Positions 3,430-17,356 of a stretch of 23,859 bases of DNA are shown here, piece by piece (position 1 is the stretch's first letter; every line of letters begins with the position of its first letter). The notes below the pieces were generated by a model. It saw nothing but the letters and a program-made list of their open reading frames with translations. It did no database searches and was not told the DNA's origin. Location: positions 1 to 23,859 of the IMG/VR virus record IMGVR_UViG_3300009414_000075; one strand, 5' to 3'. Made by a program: the position numbers and the translations under genes. Source of the stretch: a virus.

Positions 3430-3795
3430 TCACCTTAATTCAAAATGTGGTCCGTCTTTAAATGTTTTCCATGAACCACCCCATATATATGGAATGTTTA
3501 GCCGTACTGATGCATGACTAAAAGCACCATTAATTATCTCATAATCTGGAAAGTCCCACGATACTGCACCATCTTTCCACGCATATACATCTACTGCATG
3601 TCCTGTAAGATGTCTTGAGTTCATTATTTGACTCTTTCCTTGGGCAAACAATAACCGTTGTCTTTCTTTAGTACGCATCCCTTCTGAGATTCCAAAGTCA
3701 ATAAGAGATAAATCAATCGCCGCCTTAACTAATTCTTGCATATGTGGGTGTACCTCTTCTAATTTAGCTAACGATTTCTTTGATAACTTATACAT
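3430..3795 (-). CDS. endolysin, M15-family L-Ala-D-Glu / D-Ala-D-Ala type peptidase
   Basis: 121 residues, a single compact peptidase domain without cell-wall-binding domain or signal peptide. SRHLTGHAVD at residues 60-69 is the M15 SxHxxGxAxD motif, giving zinc ligands His62 and Asp69; DGPHFEL near the C-terminus gives the third ligand His117 and the catalytic acid Asp114. The D-x-x-H spacing matches the phage T5 type of endolysin. It should cleave peptide bonds in the peptidoglycan stem or cross-link of a Gram-negative host. With no signal peptide it needs a holin, and the holin gene lies immediately upstream with a one-base TAATG overlap, forming a lysis cassette embedded among tail genes. 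All metal and catalytic residues are present. Confidence 0.92.
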   Translation of the reverse strand: MYKLSKKSLAKLEEVHPHMQELVKAAIDLSLIDFGISEGMRTKERQRLLFAQGKSQIMNSRHLTGHAVDVYAWKDGAVSWDFPDYEIINGAFSHASVRLNIPYIWGGSWKTFKDGPHFELR

Positions 3796-4172
3796 TATTT
3801 TTTAAATTTACCGATTGATTTAAGCCCAAATGATGCACCAATACTAGCCATTACAGACCATTGTAACCATTCTGGAAAAGTTGCTAAGAACTCAATACCT
3901 TTTGCAACATGTGGTTGAAAATATGGAATAAATGAAAGAACTATTATAGCGATAAAACAAATTGTCCAGGCTTCATCTTTCCATGAGTCTTCAGAAGCCT
4001 TTGCCATAGCTGATTCCCATTCTACTTTGCCTTCTACTATTTTCTTTTGAACAGCAACTTTAGCATCTATCTCTGCAATTCTTAAATTACTTTTAGCAAC
4101 TGACTCTTTACCTTTATGTTCAAAATATCCACCAACTGCTTTGCTTAATCCTGATACGATAAGTCCAATCAT
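3795..4172 (-). CDS. holin, three-TM gene-transfer-agent type
   Basis: 125 residues from the ATG at 4172 (MIGLIVSGLSKAVGGYFEHK). A TTG at 4184 would add four residues, but the ribosome site GGAG lies between the two, so the ATG is the likely start. A charged helical middle (about residues 20-65, Lys/Glu rich) is followed by EDSWKDEAW and then by hydrophobic segments, WTICFIAIIVLSFIPYF and LQWSVMASIGASFGLKSIG. That layout and the SWKDE motif resemble the three-TM holin family first described in alphaproteobacterial gene transfer agents. It would form lesions in the inner membrane to release the M15 endolysin encoded directly after it. Its first ten codons recur as a fragment at 17127-17156. 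Confidence 0.82.
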   Translation of the reverse strand: MIGLIVSGLSKAVGGYFEHKGKESVAKSNLRIAEIDAKVAVQKKIVEGKVEWESAMAKASEDSWKDEAWTICFIAIIVLSFIPYFQPHVAKGIEFLATFPEWLQWSVMASIGASFGLKSIGKFKK

Positions 4173-4189
4173 AATATGCTCCAATATTA

Positions 4190-4238: not shown

Positions 4239-5171
4239 TTAGCTTGTTGCTCCGTTTCTTGTACCTGTAGCTGTAAATGTTGCAGTATTTCCGTTTAAGT
4301 TTACTGCTTTACCCGCTGCCCCAGCAGCACCAACTGCTCCGTTTGAGTCTTCAGTACTACCAAGTGTTCCTGCTGCTCCAACTGCTCCAGCTGCTCCACC
4401 ATCACCACCAGAATAAGAACTAGAACCGCCTCCTGCTCCAGCCGAACTTACTGTACCCGCAGCTCCTGCTGTTCCATTTGTGTTGGTAGTTCCACCAGAT
4501 GCTACACCGCCTGCTCCAGCAGCTCCACCACCAAAGCCGCCACCACCACCATCACCACCTCTCCTTTCTGAAGCACTGTCAGGCAAAGCTTTATAAGTAG
4601 AACCACCACCGCCACCGCCACCGCCGCCGCCAGAGATAGTTCCACCTGTATTATCTATAGTGGTATCAAATTGTAAATTTATAGCATGTCCACCAGCACC
4701 ACCAGCTACCGCAGATGATGCTGTACTACTTGAAACTGCTCCACCTGCTCCCCCGTCTCCCCCGTCTCCTACAATGGTAGAGTTATTGTCTATTGTAATA
4801 GTGTCTCCGCTTGTCCAACCAGAGCCAGTATCTAAAGCTGCTGTTCCTGTAGATGAAGATGAAATTACTGCATTATTAACAAGGGTAATATCAGCAAAAC
4901 CTGCAACATATGTTCCGCCTTTGTTACTAAAAATACTATAGTTTGCTGTATTACTGCCTATGGTTAATGTAATAGCTACACGAGCTGAAGACCCGTAGAA
5001 CTCAGATAATGCTATAGTTCCTGTACTTGGTATAGTTCCGCTGTCACCACTTGTGCCTGAAGCTACATTATCGCCACCAGCATAATATTCTGACATGGAT
5101 ATTGGATTAGACCCGCCAAACTCTGTTTGAATGGCTGAAAACGCTAAGGACCCTGAACTAGGTATCGCCAT
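4239..5171 (-). CDS. glycine-rich receptor-binding adhesin (T4-like gp38 style)
   Basis: 310 residues. The N-terminus (IPSSGSLAFSAIQTEFGG, then MSEYYAGGDNV and IALSEFYGSSARVAITLTIG) resembles the attachment region of marine phage adhesins. A beta region (LVNNAVISSSSTG, SGDTITIDNNSTIVGDGG) leads into a long tract from about residue 130 to 290 dominated by GG, GA and GGG motifs, including ten consecutive Gly. This is the composition of distal tail adhesins whose Gly-rich strands pack as a polyglycine-II sandwich and expose variable loops for receptor binding. It lies four bases after the S74 fibre gene, as expected for a fibre-tip protein. Local GC is much higher than in neighbours because of the Gly codons. 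Homology is inferred from composition and layout only. Confidence 0.75.
   Translation of the reverse strand: MAIPSSGSLAFSAIQTEFGGSNPISMSEYYAGGDNVASGTSGDSGTIPSTGTIALSEFYGSSARVAITLTIGSNTANYSIFSNKGGTYVAGFADITLVNNAVISSSSTGTAALDTGSGWTSGDTITIDNNSTIVGDGGDGGAGGAVSSSTASSAVAGGAGGHAINLQFDTTIDNTGGTISGGGGGGGGGGSTYKALPDSASERRGGDGGGGGFGGGAAGAGGVASGGTTNTNGTAGAAGTVSSAGAGGGSSSYSGGDGGAAGAVGAAGTLGSTEDSNGAVGAAGAAGKAVNLNGNTATFTATGTRNGATS
4603..4632 (-). repeat. GGN trinucleotide run coding for Gly10
   Basis: Ten consecutive glycine codons, nearly all GGC or GGT, form an imperfect triplet repeat inside the adhesin gene. Slippage would change Gly number in whole codons and keep the frame. Confidence 0.9.
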
Positions 5172-5175
5172 CTAT

Positions 5176-6498
5176 TTACCCCTTCTTTAGTTCATCTACT
5201 TCGGCTTTTAATTCTTTAATTGCTTCAATAAGAACACCAACAAGATTGCCGTAAGCAACTGACATATATTCCCCTTTATCATGTACTACTTCTGGCATTA
5301 TTTTTTGCACTTCTTGAGCAATCACACCTGTGCCTTGTCTACCATCTCTAGTAAAAGTGACACCTCTCATATTTTTTACTTTAGTCAAAGCATCTTCAAT
5401 AGTCTCAATATCATCTTTTAGACGTTCATCTGAGAAAGCTGTAACATCATTATTAAAAGTCGCAGCCCCAGCTCCACTCATATCAAGTGTTAATGCTGTT
5501 ATAGTTGAGCCACCATCATTACCTTTAAAAATTATATCTTTATCGGATATTGCGGAGTGAACAACAAAATCACTAGAACTATTTGTGAACCTTCCAATCT
5601 CCGTACCAGCATCTTTAAAAATAACATCTCCACCATCAGCATCTAATACAATATCTCCAGCTACATCTACTGTTAAATCACCACTAGATAAGTCAATTTC
5701 AGTTCCATCAATAGTTATATTATCTACTATTACACCAGCATTTGCTGTGACTGTGCTGTTAAAACTAGCAGCTCCTGCTGCACTCATATCTAGTGTTAAT
5801 GCTGTAATCCCACTACCACCATCATTACCTTGAATAAGGACATCCTTGTCGCTAACCAAAGATTTTATGGTTAGGTTATCGCTATCCATGCTAACATGAC
5901 CGACATTCGTACTACCATCTTTAAAGATAACTTCTTCTCCACCAGCATCTAATATAATATCTGCTGCTACATCTAAAGTTAAATCTCCAGAGGATAAGTC
6001 TATTTCTGTACCATCTATAGTTATATTATCAACAGTAACTCCTGCATCAGCATCAACTACACCACTAAAAGTTGCAGCTCCAGCTGTTAAAGTAGTTACA
6101 TGAGTAACAGCATCAACAACATTAGTACCGTCGTTATACACCCACATAGTTTTGCCTGTTGGAACAGCAATTCCTGTTCCTGATGGAGTTTTAATAGTGA
6201 TTGTGTCAGCAGTACCATTATTAACTATATAAGGTTTTTCTATAGCTGGAACTACTAAATTTTGTGCTCCACCTGATGTACCTGTTAAATTAAGTCTTAG
6301 ATGACGAGCTGATTGTGTTCCGTTTGAATCTGTTAAGGTAAGAGTTGCTGTACCACTTGAAAATGCTACATCAACTGATTCGGCAATAGCTTCTTCTATT
6401 GCTGTACCTAAATTAGTATTAGTTGTGGTACCCCAGCTTCCTGATTGTTCTCCAGTACCTATTAATTCTATTTTTAAATTTGAATATGAACTAGCCAT
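5176..6498 (-). CDS. tail fibre with C-terminal S74 intramolecular chaperone
   Basis: 440 residues. The N-terminal ~145 residues (MASSYSNLKIELIGTGEQSG, WGTTTNTNLGTAIEEAI) resemble the virion-proximal domain of marine phage fibres. Residues 151-252 and 253-352 are two copies of a ~100-residue beta-repeat (DNITIDGTEIDLSSGDLT ... SDKDVLIQGNDGG). Residues 356-440 are a peptidase S74 chaperone: SDERLKDDIETI gives the Ser356/Lys361 dyad, followed by GVIAQEVQKIMPEVV and a C-terminal coiled-coil helix. Members of this family trimerise the fibre and then cut themselves off just before that serine, leaving a mature fibre of about 355 residues. The start has a strong AAAGGAGAAAGGAG ribosome region. The same beta-repeat occurs in the 1141-residue fibre. 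Confidence 0.88.
   Translation of the reverse strand: MASSYSNLKIELIGTGEQSGSWGTTTNTNLGTAIEEAIAESVDVAFSSGTATLTLTDSNGTQSARHLRLNLTGTSGGAQNLVVPAIEKPYIVNNGTADTITIKTPSGTGIAVPTGKTMWVYNDGTNVVDAVTHVTTLTAGAATFSGVVDADAGVTVDNITIDGTEIDLSSGDLTLDVAADIILDAGGEEVIFKDGSTNVGHVSMDSDNLTIKSLVSDKDVLIQGNDGGSGITALTLDMSAAGAASFNSTVTANAGVIVDNITIDGTEIDLSSGDLTVDVAGDIVLDADGGDVIFKDAGTEIGRFTNSSSDFVVHSAISDKDIIFKGNDGGSTITALTLDMSGAGAATFNNDVTAFSDERLKDDIETIEDALTKVKNMRGVTFTRDGRQGTGVIAQEVQKIMPEVVHDKGEYMSVAYGNLVGVLIEAIKELKAEVDELKKG
5443..6048 (-). repeat. two tandem copies of the ~100-codon fibre module
   Basis: Codons 151-252 and 253-352 of the S74 fibre are copies with a period of 102 codons. Each starts with [DN]AGV-x-VDNITIDGTEIDL and ends with ITALTLDMS-x-AGAA-x-FN. 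The first copy is also nearly identical in protein sequence to a stretch of the large fibre at 11875-12168. Confidence 0.85.
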
Positions 6499-6704: not shown

Positions 6705-7046
6705 TTATTGTCCTAGTGGGTTATCGTTAATAATATCATATACTTTAGCTAATTCTCTTTCCATCCAAGCAGCTAATTCATCTTCCATGTCTTTAGCTTC
6801 AATATCAAGTTTTTCTATAGCGTTGTACATCTCTTTAAGAGAATCATTATTAAATTGCACTCGTTCTTCTACTGTAGTTAATCTGTCATTTAATACACCA
6901 GTATTGCTACTAGCTACCTTACCTTCCGTAGCCACCAAACGTGTGCTTAGGTCTGACATCCACCATACGAACCCACCTGCTGCTGGAACTACTGATAAGA
7001 TTATCGTAAGTAGCACTGCTGGTGAAAGCACTAATGTCTTGTTCAT
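6705..7046 (-). CDS. membrane-anchored coiled-coil protein (spanin- or holin-like)
   Basis: 113 residues. One N-terminal membrane segment (PAVLLTIILSVVPAAGGFVW, residues 9-28) is followed by a mostly helical, heptad-like region (VATEGKVASSNTGVLNDRLT, VEERVQFNNDSLKEMYNAIE) rich in Asp, Glu and Asn. This layout fits an inner-membrane spanin (Rz-like) with a periplasmic coiled coil, or a small holin-associated protein. No lipobox partner is seen nearby, so the spanin idea is unproven. The start codon has AGGAGAT upstream and lies inside the end of the preceding exported-protein gene, giving a 128-base out-of-frame overlap. Holin and endolysin are about 2.5 kb downstream in the same transcript. 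Confidence 0.72.
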   Translation of the reverse strand: MNKTLVLSPAVLLTIILSVVPAAGGFVWWMSDLSTRLVATEGKVASSNTGVLNDRLTTVEERVQFNNDSLKEMYNAIEKLDIEAKDMEDELAAWMERELAKVYDIINDNPLGQ

Positions 7047-8478
7047 ATATCATCTCCTGTGTCAAAGACACTGTTTCTTGTATTTTAATTGTTTCAGTTA
7101 TCATTTGCAAATATGCTTCTGGTAGAATGATTGTAACCATACTTTGCACGCCATTAATTTGAGTTGTATTTTTATTATTTGTATTTTTAATTGAGTTTTT
7201 AGTTTTATTGGTTTTACTGGCGGAGGTTTTAGTACCATCTTTGTTACTATTTTTATTTTTTTTAGGTCTATTTTTCTTGACGGTTTTATTTTTAGTAATT
7301 GGCTTTTTCTTAACTCCTTTTTTATTGGAGTCGGAGGATTTTGATAACTTGCTGTCATCATTTTTTCCATCTGTTTCTGTACTCTCCTGTTCTGACGTTT
7401 CGGCAGTTTCTTCTTCTTGTTCATTTTCGCTCTCCTGAATATCTTCAACATCTTCATTATTAGTATCTTCAGCTTCTGCTAAATCTTCTTCCATAGTATC
7501 TTCAGATAATTCTTCTGCAACTTCAATTACCTCGGCTTCTAATTCTTCTGCGACTTCAGCTACTTCGGTTTCTAACTCTACTGGTTCTTCTATTTCTTGA
7601 ATTTCTTGTATAGGTTCTATCTCAACAGTTTCTGGTAAATCTACAGGCATTTCAATTTCATTAATCGGTTGAATATCAACCATATTAGGTAACTCTATTT
7701 CAGGCATATCAACTGTTTCAATGGGAGATATACTTATTTCTATATTTTCTATTTCAGGCATATCAATCATTTCTAATTCAGGCATCACCTGAATATCTTG
7801 AATTAAATCTAAGGTTACTTCGGTAGATAAATCTAAACCCCCTATCATAGTTTCAACTACTACTTCTTCTACTATCGGGGCTATATATTCTTCAATAGTT
7901 AAAGTCAAATTAATATTATCTATAAGAGGACCATACCAATTACTGCTATTACCAGTATCATTCCCTGTTATAGTTAAACTAATATTTAAGTCATTAGTAT
8001 TAAATGTCCCCTCTACTTCTTCAGTAAAAGAATAAGTAGACCAGCCATCTTCATAGGGAGCTTCGGTTGTATTAGTTATTATTTCGGTAGTATCAGTAGA
8101 TGATAAAGTAATAACATTAACGATAGTGTCATCCGCCCCACCATAGCACCATTCACTTCCTGTATTTCCACAGCCAATACTTTGAAAGTTCATGTTGATT
8201 TCTTTAACAAGATGATTATCTAATACTTCTGAGATGTCTACATCTTGGCTTATGTTGCCATCTTGGTATCTGAATCTTACACTCTTAGATGCTGAACTAC
8301 TATAGGTATTAGGGTCCCGCTTAACTTTCTCTTGATTACTATCTGATAGTTCCCAGCCAGAAGTGTCAGTCGTAAAGCTATTATTAGTTATTAGGTTGTC
8401 CGTAGTTTCTGCTGCTGATAGGCTTTGGATGAACCACATCAAACTTAACAGGCTTACGACTAGGGTTTTTAATGACAT
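6919..8478 (-). CDS. exported protein: CBM-like domain, acidic tract, then basic tract
   Basis: 519 residues from the ATG at 8478 (MSLKTLVVSLLSLMWFIQSL), with GAGGA placed correctly before it; an ATG at 8490 overlaps that site. A signal peptide ends near SLSA-AET. The next ~170 residues (DNLITNNSFTTDTSGWELSD ... NWYGPLIDNINLTLT) look like a galactose-binding/CBM-type jelly roll with one Cys pair. The middle has repeated MPEIE and I-x-PI-x-E motifs and becomes extremely Glu-rich. It is followed by a Lys/Asn/Ser-rich basic stretch (KKKPITKNKTVKKNRPKKNK). The last ~80 residues are mixed helical and overlap the next gene. The upstream end overlaps the 174-residue exported protein by 95 bases. I recognise no full-length family; the function is unknown, perhaps surface or periplasmic, or a virion fibre with a cleaved leader. 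Confidence 0.8.
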   Translation of the reverse strand: MSLKTLVVSLLSLMWFIQSLSAAETTDNLITNNSFTTDTSGWELSDSNQEKVKRDPNTYSSSASKSVRFRYQDGNISQDVDISEVLDNHLVKEINMNFQSIGCGNTGSEWCYGGADDTIVNVITLSSTDTTEIITNTTEAPYEDGWSTYSFTEEVEGTFNTNDLNISLTITGNDTGNSSNWYGPLIDNINLTLTIEEYIAPIVEEVVVETMIGGLDLSTEVTLDLIQDIQVMPELEMIDMPEIENIEISISPIETVDMPEIELPNMVDIQPINEIEMPVDLPETVEIEPIQEIQEIEEPVELETEVAEVAEELEAEVIEVAEELSEDTMEEDLAEAEDTNNEDVEDIQESENEQEEETAETSEQESTETDGKNDDSKLSKSSDSNKKGVKKKPITKNKTVKKNRPKKNKNSNKDGTKTSASKTNKTKNSIKNTNNKNTTQINGVQSMVTIILPEAYLQMITETIKIQETVSLTQEMIYEQDISAFTSSATYDNLISSSSSRWVRMVDVRPKHTFGGYGR

Positions 8479-8908
8479 TATTATCCTCATCTATAATATT
8501 ACGTTTACGATATTCAGCTATTGCATCATCTCCTATCAAACCATTGACAGGACAAGGGCTTCCAGCTGCAAGCATTGCTTCAAATACACGGATATCTTGA
8601 CAAAGCATAGCCGTAGCGGAGACTTTCATCCCTAATTGAGCTAAGGCCCTAGAAAGTTTAATCATTTGACAGTTTTTATCTACCACTTGAATACCAGCAG
8701 AGATACCAATGAACCCACCTGATACACCGCCTGCTCTAGCTACCACACATATATCAGAGTAAGCCCCTGATGATGACATAGATGGTACGGTTGGAGTGGG
8801 TACTGGCATATCTCGGTAGTGTATATTGGATGTGCTATCAGCCGCATGAAGCGTAGCTGAATAAGCTAGAGTTATTGCAAATACAATAATGTAGAGTAAA
8901 ATTTTCAT
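8384..8908 (-). CDS. small exported four-cysteine protein
   Basis: 174 residues with a clear signal peptide (MKILLYIIVFAITLAYSATL, cleavage after HA, near residues 22-23). The mature part opens with a Pro/Ser segment (YRDMPVPTPTVPSMSSSGAY). Four cysteines follow, at 54, 80, 103 and 119, which fits two disulfides in the periplasm or outside the cell. A conserved-looking core reads VVDKNCQMIKLSRALAQLGM and LCQDIRVFEAMLAAGSPCP. The C-terminal third is polar and disordered-looking and is dual-coded with the signal peptide of the next gene. Its ATG shares a base with the upstream stop (TAATG). Similar exported proteins recur in marine phage fibre regions; their role is unknown to me. A virion surface or superinfection role is speculation. 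Confidence 0.8.
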   Translation of the reverse strand: MKILLYIIVFAITLAYSATLHAADSTSNIHYRDMPVPTPTVPSMSSSGAYSDICVVARAGGVSGGFIGISAGIQVVDKNCQMIKLSRALAQLGMKVSATAMLCQDIRVFEAMLAAGSPCPVNGLIGDDAIAEYRKRNIIDEDNNVIKNPSRKPVKFDVVHPKPISSRNYGQPNN

Positions 8909-9096: not shown

Positions 9097-12000
9097 CTAT
9101 ATTTCTGCATCAAATTGTACAAAAGCACTTCCAGATTGAAACACACCACAAGGATGTGTAGCAGTCATTCCTGTTCCACTTACTGTTATATCAGCCTCAA
9201 AACAATCAACATCAAGATAAGTTGCACTAAAACCAGTACTCGTCGGTTGATGACTATTGCTATAGAACCAAGACATAGTTCCTGACTGTGTAGCAGTCGG
9301 AGCTGCTCTAAATTGAGTAGGGAATAATCCCATTCTGGCTCTAGCTAATGTATTATTAGCATTAGCTGAACCTATCAATGGTGGCTGAGTATATTTTTGA
9401 AAGTAGCGTTGACATCTTTCAAAATTTTCTCCATAACTTTCGTGTTGAAATGATGGAATAGTATCTGAGGTATATGAACCGACTTCTAATCGCATTCCAG
9501 TTATTTTAATATCATTGTCAGTAGCATCAAAGAATGAACCAATCCCTGCTGCTGAGTTAGCATTATTAGTAGAAGCCCATGAACTCGCTAAAGTTCCACC
9601 TGTATAAGTTGCTCCAGCATGTAACCACATTCTGACACGCAAACTTTCCGCATTGTCATTGTCAAATTTTCCAGTAGTATCTGCTGCAAAGGATAATATA
9701 TGTTGAGTCCATGAGGTTGCAGAAGTAAAGGTTTTTGCTATATGTCTAGTGTTATCAATATCTGATAATTCTATTACATAAACTTTTGCATCTTGAGCTT
9801 TCATATAAAATGAAATGGTAATGGCTTTAGCACTAGAAAATCCTTTTTCAATCATTTGTAAATTTTGGCCTTCTATTCTCCAATCTAAAGTAAAGAGTTC
9901 TCCTGTCGCTATACTAGTATCTGCTGTAGTGCAATCTAAATGTAAACAATTAGAAAACCCAGCTAAATCTGTGATTGCTGTACGAGCTGATGTAAACCTA
10001 CCTGCACTCGTTGCTCCAATCGTATGTCTTACACGATCTACCGTAACATAGCCTTCATCTCCATCTCCTAATGCAGCTTCCGAAGTACTTCTTTGTGCCA
10101 CTTGCATATCGCCATTTATAATAATCGCTTTAGAATTACGTCTTAAAGAATCTCCACCCGATGCAGTTTCCCAAGCAATCGTGCCAGAACCATCAGTAGT
10201 TAATACTTGACCATCATCACCATCAGCAGTAGGCATTGAAAATGCAACGCTATTAGAAGTTAATATTAATTTACTTCCATCTGATGATACTGATTCCCCT
10301 GCATCATGTAACTGTAATGTTGGACTTCCACCACTATCTGTTAAAAGTAGCCCTGTGTCATGTACATGAGTTAAAGCAATTTCATCATTACCACCAAAAG
10401 ATAAAATCGCACCATCATGCTGTAGCTCTAAGTCTTGAGTTAGAGTAACATCTCCATCTGCCCCTATTGCTATTGCATCTACATCAGAAGCTGAACCTAT
10501 TGTTCCAGCATCTTTAATTATTATGTCATCTACAAATGTAACGATACCTGTACTTGCTATTGTTATAGCTGAAGTGCTTGAAGCAACACCAATCGTTGCA
10601 GCATCTTTCAATACTAAGTCATCTACTAAAGTAACGATACCTGTAGCAGCAATGGTTATAGCGGATGTACTTGAAGCTGAACCAATAGTACCTGCGTCTG
10701 GTACCACAATCCCTGCGTTAAATGTAGCTGCTCCAGCAGCACTCATATCAAAAGTCAATGCTGAAATAGGAGAGCCCCCATCATTACCTTGGAATATCAT
10801 ATCCTTATCACTAACTAACGACTTAATAGTTAGATTATCACTATCCATACTAACGTGACCTACATTAGTACTACCATCTTTAAAGATAACTTCATCACCT
10901 GCTGCATCTAATACAATATCACCTGCTGAATCTAAAGTAACTGTTGTTCCATCGGCCTCAAATGTACCATCAGCAGTTATTGTAATATTTGCTGCTGCCG
11001 CTGCCGCATCGGTAGTTACGATTGATAAAGTTCCATTTGTTCCAGCGGTAAGTACAGCTGTATCACTTGCTGACCCAGTCATAGTAACGACTTTGCCATC
11101 TACAGCCACATCGTCTACAGTAAGAGCTGTCAGAGTACCTAATGAAGTTATATTAGTCTGTGCTGCCGTAGTTAAAGTAACATCAGCAACATAAGTTTTT
11201 ACTCTTGACATGGCAGATTTTCTTTCTGTTCCACTAGCATTATCATCAACAATAATTAAATCAGCATCTGCAAGACCTGCTCCAATATCTGTAGCACCAT
11301 CAATATCTAGTGCACCAACGTCAACTTTATTAGCTGTAGAAATAGTAGCTAATTTACTATCAGCAATCGCAGCACCTGAAGCTACACTTGCGTTAACCAC
11401 AGCATCAGCTGCTAATTGGTCAGCACCCACAGCATCATCTGCAATTTTTGCTTGAGTTACATTATCATCAACAATAGAAGCAGTTACTACTGCACTTGCC
11501 GCTAATTGGTCAGCTCCTATAGCATCATCTGCCATTTTAGCTTGAGTTACATTATCATCAACAATAGAAGCAGTTACGACTGCACTAGCTGCTAATTGGT
11601 CAGCTCCTACAGCATCATCTGCAATTTTTGCTTGGGTTACATTGTCATCAACAATAGAAGCGGTTACTACTGCACTAGCTGCTAATTGGTCAGCTCCTAC
11701 AGCATCATCACCTATCATAGCTTGTTCTACTGCATCATTTGCGATAGTTACAGCACCACCCGAAGCAATACTAACATCACCACTTACTGCAACTTCTTCA
11801 TAGCTAGTGCCATCACTTACTAAAATTTTTGCGGACGTTACATCAGGCATTATTAATTTGCCCCCAACTGTAACATTATCATTAAAAGCAGCTGCTCCTG
11901 CAGCACTCATATCCAGAGTTAAAGCTGTAATACCAGAACCCCCGTCATTACCTTGAATAAGGACATCTTTATCACTAACTAGGGATTTAATAGTTAAATT

Positions 12001-12522
12001 ATCACTATCCATACTGACGTGGCCTACATTAGTACTACCATCTTTAAAGATAACCTCATCTCCAGCAGCATCTAAAATAATATCCCCCGCTACATCTAAG
12101 GTTAAATCTCCTGAACTTAAGTCTATTTCTGTACCATCTATATTTATGTTATCAACCGTAATACCTGCATCAACCGCTAATGCTCCTGATAATGTTAAAT
12201 TACCACTAGCATCTAATACAGTTGCTTTACTAGCTGGTAAACAACAAAATATAGTTTTTGTTCCTGCAGAAAAATCTACTACACTATCGCTATTAGAACT
12301 AGATATGATTGTAGTACGAGCAAGGGTTGAGCTATCTGAAGATAAAGTACCTAAACCTACTTCAAATTCTGCATTTAGTACAATACAGTAATAAGTTGTA
12401 TTACTATTACCAATACCTACAGCAAAAGTTTCAAACCCAGAAACAGCTCCAGCTAAAGTAACTGTGCCAGTACCTGTAGTTGAGGTAGTTTCTTTAACTC
12501 TATCATTAAGAACAAGTGCCAT
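9097..12522 (-). CDS. large repeat-built tail fibre with C-terminal receptor-binding region
   Basis: 1141 residues. The N-terminus (MALVLNDRVKETTSTTGTGT, FAVGIGNSNTTYYCIVLNAE) is a virion-attachment domain typical of marine phage fibres. Residues 119-216 carry the ~100-residue beta module shared with the S74 fibre; a shorter second copy covers about 531-604. Residues 271-375 are 3.5 tandem 30-residue repeats (ADDAVGADQLAASAVVTASI...), and residues 609-701 are three 31-residue repeats (DAGTIGSASSTSAITIA...). From about residue 795 (SKAIIINGDMQVAQRST) there is a lectin-like C-terminal region ending in IPSFQHESYGENFERCQRYF and a distal tail, the usual receptor-binding end. Unlike the other fibre it has no S74 chaperone. 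AGGAGATATAA precedes the ATG. Likely a trimeric host-recognition fibre. Confidence 0.85.
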   Translation of the reverse strand: MALVLNDRVKETTSTTGTGTVTLAGAVSGFETFAVGIGNSNTTYYCIVLNAEFEVGLGTLSSDSSTLARTTIISSSNSDSVVDFSAGTKTIFCCLPASKATVLDASGNLTLSGALAVDAGITVDNINIDGTEIDLSSGDLTLDVAGDIILDAAGDEVIFKDGSTNVGHVSMDSDNLTIKSLVSDKDVLIQGNDGGSGITALTLDMSAAGAAAFNDNVTVGGKLIMPDVTSAKILVSDGTSYEEVAVSGDVSIASGGAVTIANDAVEQAMIGDDAVGADQLAASAVVTASIVDDNVTQAKIADDAVGADQLAASAVVTASIVDDNVTQAKMADDAIGADQLAASAVVTASIVDDNVTQAKIADDAVGADQLAADAVVNASVASGAAIADSKLATISTANKVDVGALDIDGATDIGAGLADADLIIVDDNASGTERKSAMSRVKTYVADVTLTTAAQTNITSLGTLTALTVDDVAVDGKVVTMTGSASDTAVLTAGTNGTLSIVTTDAAAAAANITITADGTFEADGTTVTLDSAGDIVLDAAGDEVIFKDGSTNVGHVSMDSDNLTIKSLVSDKDMIFQGNDGGSPISALTFDMSAAGAATFNAGIVVPDAGTIGSASSTSAITIAATGIVTLVDDLVLKDAATIGVASSTSAITIASTGIVTFVDDIIIKDAGTIGSASDVDAIAIGADGDVTLTQDLELQHDGAILSFGGNDEIALTHVHDTGLLLTDSGGSPTLQLHDAGESVSSDGSKLILTSNSVAFSMPTADGDDGQVLTTDGSGTIAWETASGGDSLRRNSKAIIINGDMQVAQRSTSEAALGDGDEGYVTVDRVRHTIGATSAGRFTSARTAITDLAGFSNCLHLDCTTADTSIATGELFTLDWRIEGQNLQMIEKGFSSAKAITISFYMKAQDAKVYVIELSDIDNTRHIAKTFTSATSWTQHILSFAADTTGKFDNDNAESLRVRMWLHAGATYTGGTLASSWASTNNANSAAGIGSFFDATDNDIKITGMRLEVGSYTSDTIPSFQHESYGENFERCQRYFQKYTQPPLIGSANANNTLARARMGLFPTQFRAAPTATQSGTMSWFYSNSHQPTSTGFSATYLDVDCFEADITVSGTGMTATHPCGVFQSGSAFVQFDAEI
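10420..10698 (-). repeat. three 31-codon tandem repeats in the large fibre
   Basis: Codons 609-701 of the large fibre repeat DA[GA]TIG-x-AS-[SD]-x-[SD]-AI-x-I three times with a period of 31 codons (93 bases). The third copy has diverged most. Probably a beta-helical shaft. Confidence 0.8.
10711..10932 (-). repeat. second, shorter copy of the shared fibre module
   Basis: Codons 531-604 of the large fibre repeat the motif run AGDEVIFKDGSTNVGHVSMD ... SDKD-x-x-x-QGNDGGS found at 11875-12168 and in the S74 fibre. It lacks the ITVDN-IDGTEIDL opening. Confidence 0.8.
11398..11712 (-). repeat. 3.5 tandem 90-base repeats in the large fibre
   Basis: Codons 271-375 consist of a 30-codon unit (x-DDA-[VI]-GADQLAASAVVTASIVDDN-VTQAK) repeated three times and followed by half a copy. 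Copies are almost identical in protein and differ mainly at silent sites. Likely a fibre shaft whose length can change by unequal recombination. Confidence 0.9.
11875..12168 (-). repeat. fibre module shared with the S74 fibre gene
   Basis: Codons 119-216 of the large fibre match codons 151-248 of the S74 fibre at nearly every residue (DNINIDGTEIDLSSGDLTLD ... GITALTLDMSAAGAA), while the DNA differs at many third positions. Confidence 0.88.
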
Positions 12523-14598: not shown

Positions 14599-15279
14599 CT
14601 ATATACTTTGTCTTTTAGGTACAATTCTTAAATCAGATTTTTCTCTATCTTCTGTTGAAGCTAACACCCACTGTTCTTCATACTCTTGTTTTAAAAACTG
14701 AGTTCTATCTCCTGCGTTAGGTATTTTTAAACTAAGATAGAAAGATAATCCTGCTACTAAACAAGGTAAAAACCTAAAGGGTATATCTTGGTTAGTAACC
14801 CCAGTACCTGCATCTTCAATTCTTTTGAGTGCCCAATAAACAAAGGTATAAGTATTATCTTCAGGAGCAGGCCACACATTAATAGTAGGTTGTGCTACTT
14901 GACGATTAATCCAAACTTGTACAGGTCTACCTGTAGAATTTTTATTAGGAATAACTCCATAAGAAGACGCTGATATTCTTGTAATATTTATATCTTCTTG
15001 GCTAGTTCCTGTGCCTGTCCTAATCACTTGTTCAAGTAAGTCAATAGTATCTGCAGGTAAATTATAAGTTATGGTGTCTTCAGTTAGAGAAACAGTACCT
15101 TCATCAATAGTCCAAAGATTAATACCTCTATTAGCCCATTCTGCCATTAGTAAATTTAAACTACGGCGAGCTGTACGTAAGTCATAACCTGTACGCATTT
15201 CTGATCCACATCTTTCAAATGCTTCTTCAACTATTTGGTTTAAATCTAAGTTAAACGCTGTTGTTCCTGATGTTGCCAT
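14599..15279 (-). CDS. gp4-like head-tail adaptor
   Basis: 226 residues. The N-terminus (NLDLNQIVEEAFERCGSEMR, YDLRTARRSLNLLMAEWANR) is an all-helical opening I associate with P22 gp4-like adaptors of marine phages. A beta domain follows (GTVSLTEDTITYNLPADTID, RPVQVWINRQVAQPTINVWP), then YTFVYWALKRIEDAG and a C-terminal helical arm (AGLSFYLSLKIPNAGDRTQF). It should bind the portal and carry the tail hub. The start overlaps the stop of the last tagged gene by one base (TAATG), with its ribosome site inside the tag codons. Assignment is by pattern and gene order. Confidence 0.8.
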   Translation of the reverse strand: MATSGTTAFNLDLNQIVEEAFERCGSEMRTGYDLRTARRSLNLLMAEWANRGINLWTIDEGTVSLTEDTITYNLPADTIDLLEQVIRTGTGTSQEDINITRISASSYGVIPNKNSTGRPVQVWINRQVAQPTINVWPAPEDNTYTFVYWALKRIEDAGTGVTNQDIPFRFLPCLVAGLSFYLSLKIPNAGDRTQFLKQEYEEQWVLASTEDREKSDLRIVPKRQSI

Positions 15280-15368
15280 TAGATAATTCTCCCTTTAGTT
15301 CTACCACGTTTAGCTATACCATCGCCACGATGAGATTTAGTTTTCTTTACTTTACCACCTTTTTTCAT
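15279..15368 (-). repeat. tag cassette copy 1
   Basis: Last 30 codons of tagged protein 1 including stop. Differs from copy 2 (15605-15694) at only two bases, both silent. The 3' end also holds the ribosome site and TAATG start of the next gene. Confidence 0.95.
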
Positions 15369-15605
15369 TTTCTTTTTGCTTTTCTTTTTATCCTTATCTC
15401 TTACTCTATCTTTATCTTTATAAATTTCTTGCATTTCCTTTAATCTTTTTTCTTTTAATCTTTTTACAACAGGAATTCTATCTGCTTCTAATCCAGGTAT
15501 AGCCAAAAATCTATTTCGAGCTTCTGGACTCTGTAGGTATTTTATAAAGGCTGTCTTATTTATCATTCTTGTTAATGGGTCTGTTTTTCTTCCTTTAATA
15601 GCCAT
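15279..15605 (-). CDS. tagged basic protein 1 (RGDGIA C-terminal tag)
   Basis: 108 residues. A unique body (MAIKGRKTDPLTRMINKTAF, IPGLEADRIPVVKRLKEKRL) is followed by a Lys/Asp tract and the 29-residue tag from MKKGGKVKKTKS to RGDGIAKRGRTKGRII. The tag peptide is identical to that of the next gene upstream. The start is a TAATG joint with that gene. The protein is highly basic and without membrane segment. The shared tag suggests that these proteins go to one place or bind one partner, such as the capsid interior or DNA; this is inference. Confidence 0.78.
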   Translation of the reverse strand: MAIKGRKTDPLTRMINKTAFIKYLQSPEARNRFLAIPGLEADRIPVVKRLKEKRLKEMQEIYKDKDRVRDKDKKKSKKKMKKGGKVKKTKSHRGDGIAKRGRTKGRII

Positions 15606-15694
15606 TAGATAATTCTCCCTTTAGTTCTACCACGTTTAGCAATACCATCGCCACGATGGGATTTAGTTTTCTTTACTTTACCACCTTTTTTCAT
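15605..15694 (-). repeat. tag cassette copy 2
   Basis: Last 30 codons of tagged protein 2 including stop; near-identical to copy 1 in DNA and identical in protein. Confidence 0.95.
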
Positions 15695-15895
15695 CCTTTT
15701 TCCACCTAATGGTCCTTTAGTAGCACCAAATTCCTCCTCACCACTAATATAAGGTGCATAATATCCACCCATTATTTTATCCATATCATTTAAAAGGCTT
15801 CTTTTACTCCTTTCTTTAAAGGTCCTATATTTGAGGTCGAGCTCCCTTCTTCTTTCTGGGGTCATTTTACGTCTTTTTGTAATCTGTCTAGCCAT
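15605..15895 (-). CDS. tagged basic protein 2 (RGDGIA C-terminal tag)
   Basis: 96 residues. The body (RQITKRRKMTPERRRELDLK, NDMDKIMGGYYAPYISGEEE) is unrelated to protein 1, but the last 29 residues are identical to it. It has an Arg/Lys-rich helical start and a Tyr/Gly middle. It is joined to both neighbours by TAATG overlaps. The ribosome site AGGGAG for the next gene lies within its own tag codons (TKGRI). The function is unknown. Confidence 0.78.
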   Translation of the reverse strand: MARQITKRRKMTPERRRELDLKYRTFKERSKRSLLNDMDKIMGGYYAPYISGEEEFGATKGPLGGKRMKKGGKVKKTKSHRGDGIAKRGRTKGRII

Positions 15896-15975
15896 TAGAC
15901 TATTCTCCCTTTAGTTCTACCACGTTTAGCAATACCATCGCCACGATGGGATTTAACTATACCGCCTTTTTTCAT
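15895..15975 (-). repeat. tag cassette copy 3
   Basis: Last 27 codons of tagged protein 3. The 3' half is almost identical in DNA to copies 1 and 2; the 5' half is shorter by three codons. Confidence 0.92.
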
Positions 15976-16314
15976 ACCTTTTTCCCTTTTATCTTCTTTT
16001 TTTAATACTGCTTGTGTTTTTAGATAGGCAGCTGTCTTTTTCTTAGACTCATCATCCTTCCTAGTACCCTTTAGGGTTGGAATGGGATTTCTGTAATCGC
16101 CTTTTCTATACTTAAATTTATCGTACATCGTAGCTTTAGTAGCTTTAATTCCTTCTCGTTTAGCGGCTATAAGTTTTTGTATTTCATCTTTTTGTTTGGG
16201 GTTAGCACTTTTCATAGCTTTTTTTAATTTTTCTATTTCTTTTCGCATACGATCTCTAACTGTTTCAACATGAAAGAAGCCGCTACTTTCTATGGTTTTT
16301 CCGCCTTGTGCCAT
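15895..16314 (-). CDS. tagged basic protein 3 (RGDGIA C-terminal tag)
   Basis: 139 residues. The body starts MAQGGKTIESSGFFHVETVR and contains a long charged helix (RMRKEIEKLKKAMKSANPKQ, DEIQKLIAAKREGIKATKAT), then a Tyr/Lys-rich segment (DKFKYRKGDYRNPIPTLKG). The tag is a shortened form, MKKGGIVKSHRGDGIAKRG then RTKGRIV, lacking the three-residue KKT insert. It is coupled by TAATG at both ends. The helix could form a coiled coil. The function is unknown. Confidence 0.77.
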   Translation of the reverse strand: MAQGGKTIESSGFFHVETVRDRMRKEIEKLKKAMKSANPKQKDEIQKLIAAKREGIKATKATMYDKFKYRKGDYRNPIPTLKGTRKDDESKKKTAAYLKTQAVLKKEDKREKGMKKGGIVKSHRGDGIAKRGRTKGRIV

Positions 16315-16394
16315 TAGACTATTCTCCCTTTAGTTCTACCACTTCTTGCTATACCATCGCCACGACGGGATTTAACTATGCCACCAGCTTTCTT
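16314..16394 (-). repeat. tag cassette copy 4
   Basis: Last 27 codons of tagged protein 4. Same length as copy 3, with several amino-acid changes (SRRGDGIARSGRTKGRIV). Confidence 0.9.
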
Positions 16395-16934
16395 TTTCTT
16401 ACTCTTTAAATTACTACTTCTCTCCAATAGTAGAGGAATACTTTTAACAGATAGAGGCACGCCTTTCTTTTTCTTTGCTACCTTTTTAGTAGATTGTTTC
16501 ATAGGTTTATCTAATTTTTCAATTTTTTTTAATAATGCTTTTCTTTCTTTTAAAGCTTTTTCTGCTAATGCTAAATTCTTATCTTTAATATGATAGTGCG
16601 TTTCCCAAAATTTATCAGTTGCTTTTTGGTCCAGCCTATCTTTTTCTGCAAAAGATGATGGTTTTTTTGCCTTAGCCGCCTTAGCACCTGCCTTCTTTTT
16701 AACTGCCTTACGTAGTCCAGAAGTAAAAACAGCAGAATGTAAATCTTGAGCCGCCTTAGTCGCCTTAGCACCTGCCTTCACACCTAAAGAACCTGGTATA
16801 ACTAAAGAAGCTATCTCTAGCCCCTTTCGAAAACTCTTTTTACCTTCAGGGTCTTTACGACCTGCTTTACGCTCTTGTTCCAATCTTGTTTTGATTGGAG
16901 ACTTACCACGTCTTGTACCAATTTTTCTAGCCAT
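16314..16934 (-). CDS. tagged basic protein 4 (RGDGIA-like C-terminal tag)
   Basis: 206 residues, the longest of the tagged set. The body includes a hydrophobic/Ala stretch (GLEIASLVIPGSLGVKAGAK), Ala/Lys repeats resembling DNA-binding tails (KKKAGAKAAKAKKPSSFAEK) and a helix (LALAEKALKERKALLKKIEK). The tag is diverged: AGGIVKSRRGDGIARSG then RTKGRIV. AGGAGCTTAAG precedes the ATG at 16934, 14 bases after the upstream tagged gene. The very high Lys/Ala content is histone-H1-like, so DNA condensation in the head is a reasonable but untested idea. Confidence 0.77.
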   Translation of the reverse strand: MARKIGTRRGKSPIKTRLEQERKAGRKDPEGKKSFRKGLEIASLVIPGSLGVKAGAKATKAAQDLHSAVFTSGLRKAVKKKAGAKAAKAKKPSSFAEKDRLDQKATDKFWETHYHIKDKNLALAEKALKERKALLKKIEKLDKPMKQSTKKVAKKKKGVPLSVKSIPLLLERSSNLKSKKKKAGGIVKSRRGDGIARSGRTKGRIV

Positions 16935-17089: not shown

Positions 17090-17156
17090 TTCCTTCTCCT
17101 ATAATTGTTAAACTATTCTTTCCACTACTTAACCCTGATACAATAAGTCCAATCAT
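17076..17156 (-). pseudogene. 5' fragment of a second holin gene
   Basis: The ATG at 17156 overlaps the TGA of the XhlA-like gene (ATGA) and opens 26 codons: MIGLIVSGLSSGKNSLTII, then GEGNAIR. The first ten residues are identical to the start of the holin at 4172, and only three bases of those 30 differ, all at third positions. After that the match is lost, although KNSLTI weakly resembles KSNLRI of the holin. The frame then runs over the ribosome site and start of the tagged 46-residue gene. This looks like a relic of a holin gene, cut down by deletion, or a retained coupling peptide. Confidence 0.65.
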
Positions 17157-17356
17157 GGGCCTCCTCCATATTTAATAAAACCTAAAATAACTCCTGCAAT
17201 ACTACCAAGCCAAACTAAAGTTTTTACCGCACCTTTACCCATAGATATATTTGTTTGCAGTTCTTTTATATCTTTGCTGTTTTGTTCAACATCTTTATGA
17301 ACATGGTCTAATTTTGTTTCTAACCTTAATAAACATTGTTCTGTCTTTGAAGCCAT
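17153..17356 (-). CDS. XhlA-like small membrane protein (possible holin-associated)
   Basis: 67 residues. An N-terminal helical, heptad-like region (CLLRLETKLDHVHKDVEQNS, KDIKELQTNISMG) is followed by one membrane segment (AVKTLVWLGSIAGVILGFI, about residues 43-61) and a short KYGGGP end. This is the layout of haemolysin XhlA / small phage membrane proteins that work with holins. A holin fragment overlaps its stop codon, which supports a past or present lysis link. AGGTGG lies about 10 bases before the ATG at 17356. It is far from the complete holin and endolysin (3430-4172). It could instead be a general membrane-anchored coiled-coil protein. Confidence 0.72.
   Translation of the reverse strand: MASKTEQCLLRLETKLDHVHKDVEQNSKDIKELQTNISMGKGAVKTLVWLGSIAGVILGFIKYGGGP

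Follow-up and report, generated by a model that had tools for sequence, protein, structure and literature searches.

A conserved three-gene module of two exported proteins and a membrane coiled-coil protein in phages of aquatic bacteria: a candidate envelope complex of the lysis stage

The window (the whole stretch of DNA analyzed here) is the 23,859-base IMG/VR virus record IMGVR_UViG_3300009414_000075; because its capsid protein is 62.8-65.8% identical to those of the Pelagibacter phages HTVC023P and HTVC027P, it is regarded as a relative of the HTVC023P-type podoviruses. Its minus strand carries three consecutive, overlapping genes, termed P1, P2 and P3 in the order of transcription (Table 1). 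An earlier note, made from the letters of the window, had described a cluster of two genes among fiber genes, encoding a four-Cys protein of 174 residues and a 519-residue protein with a carbohydrate-binding module (CBM)-like domain; both sizes were borne out, as was the CBM-like domain by its fold, and the fiber neighbors on both sides are real, but the cluster actually comprises three genes, P3 having been missed.

Table 1. Features of the three-gene module and of its neighborhood (positions refer to the window)
Feature	Position	Strand	Remark
P1	8384..8908	-	exported protein, 174 residues, four Cys, phrog_20531 family
P1 signal peptide	8840..8908	-	residues 1-23, without lipobox
P1 conserved four-Cys domain	8522..8755	-	residues 52-129
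P1/P2 overlap	8384..8478	-	95 bases; encodes P1 tail and P2 signal peptide
P2	6919..8478	-	exported protein, 519 residues from the second ATG at 8478
P2 sugar-binding-type beta sandwich	7879..8412	-	residues 23-200; fold model and profile
P2 acidic, then lysine-rich region	7159..7881	-	residues ~200-440, predicted disordered
P2/P3 overlap	6919..7046	-	128 bases; last 128 of P2 and start of P3; strongly conserved
P3	6705..7046	-	113 residues; predicted N-terminal membrane segment and coiled coil, C-terminal NPL at 6714-6722
Fiber-like protein	9097..12522	-	upstream context
Fiber protein with S74 chaperone	5176..6498	-	context; between P3 and holin in the window
Gp38-like fiber/adhesin	4239..5171	-	context
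Holin-like protein	3795..4184	-	phrog_2524 (no function given there; holin is the reading of this analysis)
M15 peptidase endolysin	3430..3795	-	

The N-terminus of P1 reads as a cleavable, type-I-like signal peptide with cleavage between TLHA and ADS. The cysteines of the mature protein are located at positions 54, 80, 103 and 119, and the residues D52, C54, D77, C80, G93, C103, D105, M112, C119, P120, G123, G126 and A129 of the conserved domain are invariant among 80 sequences; the profile of phrog_20531, a family without assigned function, matched residues 33-120 with an E-value of 2.2e-11. According to the structure model, which is of moderate confidence (mean predicted local distance difference test score, pLDDT, 67.6), P1 consists of a beta hairpin and helices; the fold search matched no solved fold (a single PDB row, Z 2.7), and the NCBIfam search gave nothing useful. 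The viral relatives of P1 include a protein of Achromobacter phage phiAxp-2. Distant P1-like genes, i.e. L127:3422-4336 (JWAlpha), L128:7851-8411 (JP1) and L129:14599-15156 (phiAxp-2; assigned on protein length alone), show that phages whose hosts can be cultivated have such proteins too. That of the Achromobacter phage JWAlpha matches phrog_20531, the family of P1, from end to end. The available part of the JWAlpha paper (PMC3915230) does not mention this gene by locus tag, and that of the phiAxp-2 paper (PMC5037462) states that neither lysin nor holin was found.

The P2 reading frame spans 6919-8490 (minus strand) from its first ATG; a GAGG at 8485-8488, 6 nt ahead of the ATG at 8478, accompanies the second. 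Its N-terminus likewise reads as a cleavable, type-I-like signal peptide (cleavage between SLSA and AET) without lipobox. In the structure model, residues 23-200 mostly reach pLDDT values of 75-95; past residue 200 confidence is low and disorder is predicted. A profile built from 38 P2 proteins matched the sugar-binding domain of FBXO2 (E-value 5.6e-8), and the model superimposed on FBXO2 with Z 15.3 and a root-mean-square deviation (rmsd) of 5.5 over 180 residues (next match: Z 15.2, rmsd 3.0, 158 residues) and on CBM16 with Z 14.3 and rmsd 3.3 over 142 residues. Based on the model, residues 23-200 can confidently be assigned to the galactose-binding-like/CBM jelly-roll beta-sandwich fold, despite the lack of any Pfam match of P2. 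The likeness to the FBXO2-type (FBA) domain and CBM16 is confined to this head; sugar binding is predicted, and P2 is without a catalytic domain. A P2 relative in AP013540 bears the annotation “carbohydrate binding”; the text of Mizuno et al. does not name contig AP013540, so that this relative is only possibly among the 14 genes of that paper.

P3 is preceded by its own AGGAGA (7053-7058), ahead of its ATG at 7046. In an alignment of 39 P3 proteins the C-terminal N-P-L is the sole fully invariant part. The N-terminal transmembrane segment and periplasmic coiled coil that define an i-spanin were both predicted for P3 from hydropathy and coiled-coil analysis; its profile retrieved generic coiled coils only from the PDB, and weak matches to Rz-like PHROG families were obtained (E-values 0.005 and 0.11). 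The hydrophobic segment is favored to be a membrane anchor rather than a cleaved signal, since some relatives carry a long N-terminal stretch before it; the P3 of the window is also accepted by the signal-peptide heuristic, which keeps a cleaved signal peptide there as the less favored alternative.

The two gene overlaps differ in their conservation. Compared with the relative L095, 5 of the 128 bases differ in the P2/P3 overlap versus 67/214 in the part exclusive to P3 and 559/1259 in that exclusive to P2; the P1/P2 overlap differs at 23/95 bases versus 106/424 in P1-only sequence. These differences show strong constraint on the P2/P3 overlap and no measurable extra constraint on that of P1 and P2. 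The dual coding of 95 bases of P1 and P2 reported in the earlier note thus stands, a special constraint on it was rejected, and the stronger dual coding of P2 and P3 had escaped it. The P2 frame is +1 relative to P1 in all 15 loci tabulated (chosen by hand), with overlaps of 62-128 bases; other loci show P1/P2 overlaps of few bases, or gaps.

By one fixed heuristic, signal peptides were called in 83/92 P1 relatives and 75/83 P2 relatives, as opposed to 79/539 other reading frames (at least 120 residues) of the same loci. This excess is not a product of chance. Export of P1 and P2, as had been supposed from the window, is therefore well supported by sequence in the window and its relatives alike.

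The association of the three genes is near-obligatory in viral contigs. A 12-sequence P1 alignment yielded at least 600 candidates in these, at least 590 of them confirmed P1 relatives (the best 80 of 590 matches were kept; the P1 model was made from 80 sequences, the P2 model from 38 of 85 P2 rows). Within 3.5 kb downstream of P1, an open reading frame (ORF) of 60-260 residues ending in NP[LM], with up to five residues after the motif, is present in 66 of the 67 loci that have at least 3.5 kb of sequence after P1, whereas none of 573 other same-strand ORFs has this type of ending. Conversely, scans seeded with P3 of two subgroups recovered a same-strand P1 upstream in 59/59 and 47/47 loci having 4.5 kb or more of sequence on that side (62/63 and 51/51 at 3 kb), and every closed P3 ORF of the two sets ended in NPL/M (79/79 and 79/79); the P3 queries were drawn from P1 loci and some contigs are common to both sets (e.g. 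L030/L277, L031/L148, L068/L251, L076/L235, L079/L236, L081/L145), so that these counts are not fully independent. Across 68 loci (eight named loci were left out by hand), distances correlated at 0.59 between P1 and P3, at 0.65 between P1 and the P2 C-terminus and at 0.29 between P1 and the P2 head. In the similarity clustering of 68 loci, P1 and P3 each formed one cluster, the P2 heads five (45, 15, 5, 2 and 1 members). The earlier note had proposed co-occurrence of P1 and P2 in other phages as a check and the absence of one gene from close relatives as an argument against its proposal: the former is thus answered for all three genes, and no such absence was observed in the six closest contigs as far as their sequence reaches (the contigs L093 and L098 stop in P1 or shortly behind it, L096 in P2). 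P1, P2 and P3 are almost certainly one functional module.

Carriers of the module range from the 32-kb HTVC202P up to the T4-like Mosig and contigs of 206-352 kb; as judged from these sequences, a great number of phages that infect bacteria of seas and lakes have it. The scan of bacterial and archaeal genomes gave 28 loci only, every one in records of metagenome-assembled genomes, bins, single cells or uncultured assemblies, and one weak plasmid match (Variovorax). A cellular origin of the module was rejected: given these record types and the NPL gene in 13 of the 16 loci with room for it, the 28 loci look like phage contigs in bins. As a separate observation, eight loci (L046, L051, L059, L063, L081, L083, L087, L092) hold three extra small signal-peptide-like genes between P2 and P3 (~166, 124-151 and 132-150 residues; sequences read in six of them, L063 and L092 assigned from an equally large gap); those tested had no Pfam or PDB match, and the first gene had no match in phage isolates.

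The gene neighborhood of the module leans toward lysis or another late role in the envelope. With 16 endolysin or holin seeds, lysis genes were detected downstream of P1, at up to 6 kb, in 32/58 loci and upstream, at up to 5 kb, in 5/63, several of the seeds coming from the same loci and biasing the comparison accordingly. Among the five genes after P3 in 32 hand-chosen loci, the 25 most frequent PHROG families included 12 of lysis type (ten endolysin, one chitinase, one holin; 135 of 137 proteins scanned, the Rz reading substituted manually for one L064 entry, PHROG rows not independent of each other), and none of the top 25 families was lysis-type among the five genes before P1 (136 proteins). 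In L095, L015 and L017, a single small transmembrane gene and a holin gene come after P3, and in L017 an M15 endolysin gene is next; the window differs in that two fiber genes separate P3 from the holin gene. Its close match to the small transmembrane gene of L017 and L095 lies about 10 kb away (17153-17356). The lysis cassettes downstream of the module also include, at L059:6067-6387 and in relatives, a holin-like transmembrane protein with an EF-hand-like segment.

In HTVC023P the order is PurM (annotation)-P1-P2-(51 residues)-P3-M15 endolysin; in HTVC027P, isolated on the same host strain, PurM (71% identical) and M15 (93% identical) enclose gp12-gp13-gp14-gp15-gp16. The gene gp14 (L293:1301-1834) encodes an exported protein containing Cys; over its first ~30 residues this protein is similar to the signal peptides of P1, and beyond them it is unlike P1. 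The DNA of gp14 is 81% identical to L266:3372-3457 over 86 bases, the match stopping at the end of the signal peptide. This gene would thus combine a P1 signal peptide with the mature part of an unrelated exported protein, through recombination at the signal-peptide boundary. The products of gp13 and gp15 both resemble membrane-bound coiled coils. As far as the sequences tell, mature P1, P2 and P3 are absent together from HTVC027P, which is more distant from the window than the six closest contigs, and their slot is filled by a different exported protein with membrane coiled coils as neighbors: the gp13/gp14 set shares with the module the position between PurM and M15 and the P1-like signal peptide, but has an unrelated gp14 mature domain, no P2 and no NPL protein. 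The neighboring gp15/gp16 (L293:1831-2461), in which a gene for a membrane coiled coil overlaps one for a small protein with two Cys and a hydrophobic N-terminus, are a candidate spanin-like pair in their own right; in L030 the order is PurM-P1-gp15-like-gp16-like-P2-P3-M15.

P1, P2 and P3 probably form an envelope complex, the meeting of the partners in the periplasm being inferred from linkage and topology. For an action of the module at lysis, the considerations on either side are about evenly balanced, and equally so for the fuller proposal of a lysis-stage complex that spans the periplasm and is spanin-like in action without the defining lipoprotein. In this complex, P3 would be the inner-membrane anchor reaching outward; P2 would hold P3 via its conserved C-terminus and grip a glycan (murein or lipopolysaccharide, LPS) with its variable head, and P1 would be the disulfide-stabilized outer partner. 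Synthesized late, along with holin and endolysin, the complex would at first be trapped in the murein meshwork; after cleavage of the latter by the endolysin, it would make the periplasm collapse and the outer membrane break or weaken. This last step is weaker than the complex itself: spanin-like disruption of the outer membrane by the module is put forward tentatively, as somewhat less probable than its opposite. In common with two-component spanins (Rz/Rz1), the module has a predicted inner-membrane transmembrane segment with coiled coil, exported partner(s), overlapping genes and, in many relatives, a position in or beside the lysis cassette; it differs by the lack of an outer-membrane lipoprotein, which two-component spanins need according to the available part of PMC6139136, by its two exported partners, the sugar-binding-type P2 head and the invariant NPL tail of P3.

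Several observations weigh against a lysis-stage role of this kind. Lipobox-like motifs were present in only 2/94 P1 and 2/85 P2 relatives and in neither protein of the window, and P1-P3 were rejected as canonical spanins on this account; a lipobox scan of the lysis regions recovered lambda Rz1 and T7 18.7, P2 LysC and the gene read as Rz1 in L064 escaped it, and its 4/35 positives accordingly carry little weight. No lysis seed matched within 6 kb in 26/58 loci, and the module adjoins the terminase gene in HTVC202P and Baldr, neither of which was matched by the lysis seeds. The locus L064 holds the module together with a GH19 endolysin and genes read as canonical Rz/Rz1, and a gp15/gp16-like pair, which could be the real spanin, is inserted into the module, often between P1 and P2, in 36/58 A10 loci (0/68 A9 loci). 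HTVC027P and 023Pt_psg01 possess neither P1 (by profile) nor a P3-like NPL ORF, the module being dispensable in related phages. Finally, the P1-like gene of JWAlpha, unlike that of the window, stands without an NPL-ending ORF and without a recognizable P2 alongside, and recognizable P2/P3 are apparently also missing from the small-gene regions of JP1 and phiAxp-2 (their neighbors judged by annotation only).

The strongest alternative is superinfection exclusion or receptor masking: exported P1 and P2 would occupy LPS or periplasmic sites, so that injection by competing or sibling phages is blocked or progeny is spared loss on debris, and the variable head of P2 would follow the glycans on the surface of the host. 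The sugar-binding-type fold of this head and its five groups as opposed to one each for P1 and P3, the annotation of the AP013540 relative, and the location of the distant P1-like genes of JWAlpha, JP1 and phiAxp-2 outside the late genes are consistent with it. The downstream lysis genes, the slot right before the endolysin and the obligatory inner-membrane P3 are unexpected for a receptor mask, and the Pfam model of T4 Spackle matched just 3/80 P1 members (E-value 0.069 or worse). Masking is accordingly considered unlikely, and retains this much weight because of the Rz/Rz1 reading in L064, the gp15/gp16 insertions and the distant P1-like genes without partners.

Quite unlikely is a secreted surface or appendage system, curli-like in spirit, in which repeats of P1 rich in asparagine, threonine and serine and the extra exported proteins would form a structure outside the cell, serving as adhesin, in aggregation or in the capture of siblings. 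Such long stretches do form the P1 N-termini in several relatives' contigs, three small exported genes are added in the eight loci mentioned, and curli secretion genes are reported in pelagiphages in the available parts of PMC9599517 and PMC9004378; the P1 of the window is nearly free of repeats, no outer-membrane channel or usher is linked to the module, and no CsgA/B/F/G match was obtained among 80 P1 or 38 P2 proteins (Pfam, E-value 0.1). Membership in curli or type VIII secretion was rejected on the latter ground.

The earlier note had offered a coat on the host surface, a block to superinfection, an action at lysis and virion proteins with a hydrophobic N-terminal segment side by side; the downstream position of lysis genes and the agreeing PHROG scan favor lysis or another late envelope role, and the virion reading is weakened. 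The literature searches turned up no virion proteomics of a carrier, and PMC6811365 had no bearing on the matter. The fiber genes flanking the trio in the window would suit virion proteins, but in relatives it adjoins holin, endolysin, PurM, terminase or primase genes, the signal peptides are kept at the frequencies given above, and HTVC027P has a P1-like signal peptide on a different mature protein, which makes this reading very unlikely. A regulator of lysis timing, with periplasmic P1/P2 sensing the state of the envelope or superinfection and acting via P3 on the holin, is similarly improbable: the small membrane protein P3 adjoins holin genes in many loci, but the glycan head and long disordered stalk of P2 are more than a holin regulator needs, and the module accompanies several unrelated holin types.

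Elsewhere in the window (15279-16934), a nearly identical basic C-terminal tail (..SHRGDGIAKRGRTKGRI.) is present on four consecutive genes of differing length.

No description of the three-gene module, nor of the handling of the outer membrane at lysis by HTVC023P-type phages, was found in the literature searched, which mostly excluded subscription papers. HTVC023P-type pelagiphages are widespread and abundant in the ocean according to the available part of PMC9599517. The analysis provides three named, co-inherited genes in which two isolates on the same host strain differ (HTVC023P with, HTVC027P without them), and the “carbohydrate binding” protein of AP013540 belongs to the exported module, so that its reading as a virion receptor-binding protein is called into question. 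In its broadest and somewhat doubtful form, the proposal would be that of a trans-envelope machine with three components and no lipoprotein, which many phages of aquatic bacteria would share and use at lysis to open or remodel the outer membrane. Its parts would be a stalk anchored in the inner membrane and ending in NPL as docking tail, a disordered linker gripping a glycan, and an outer partner with four Cys; unrelated phage lineages would exchange the machine as a cassette. The module is probably a little-known part of the way in which these phages handle the host envelope late in infection.

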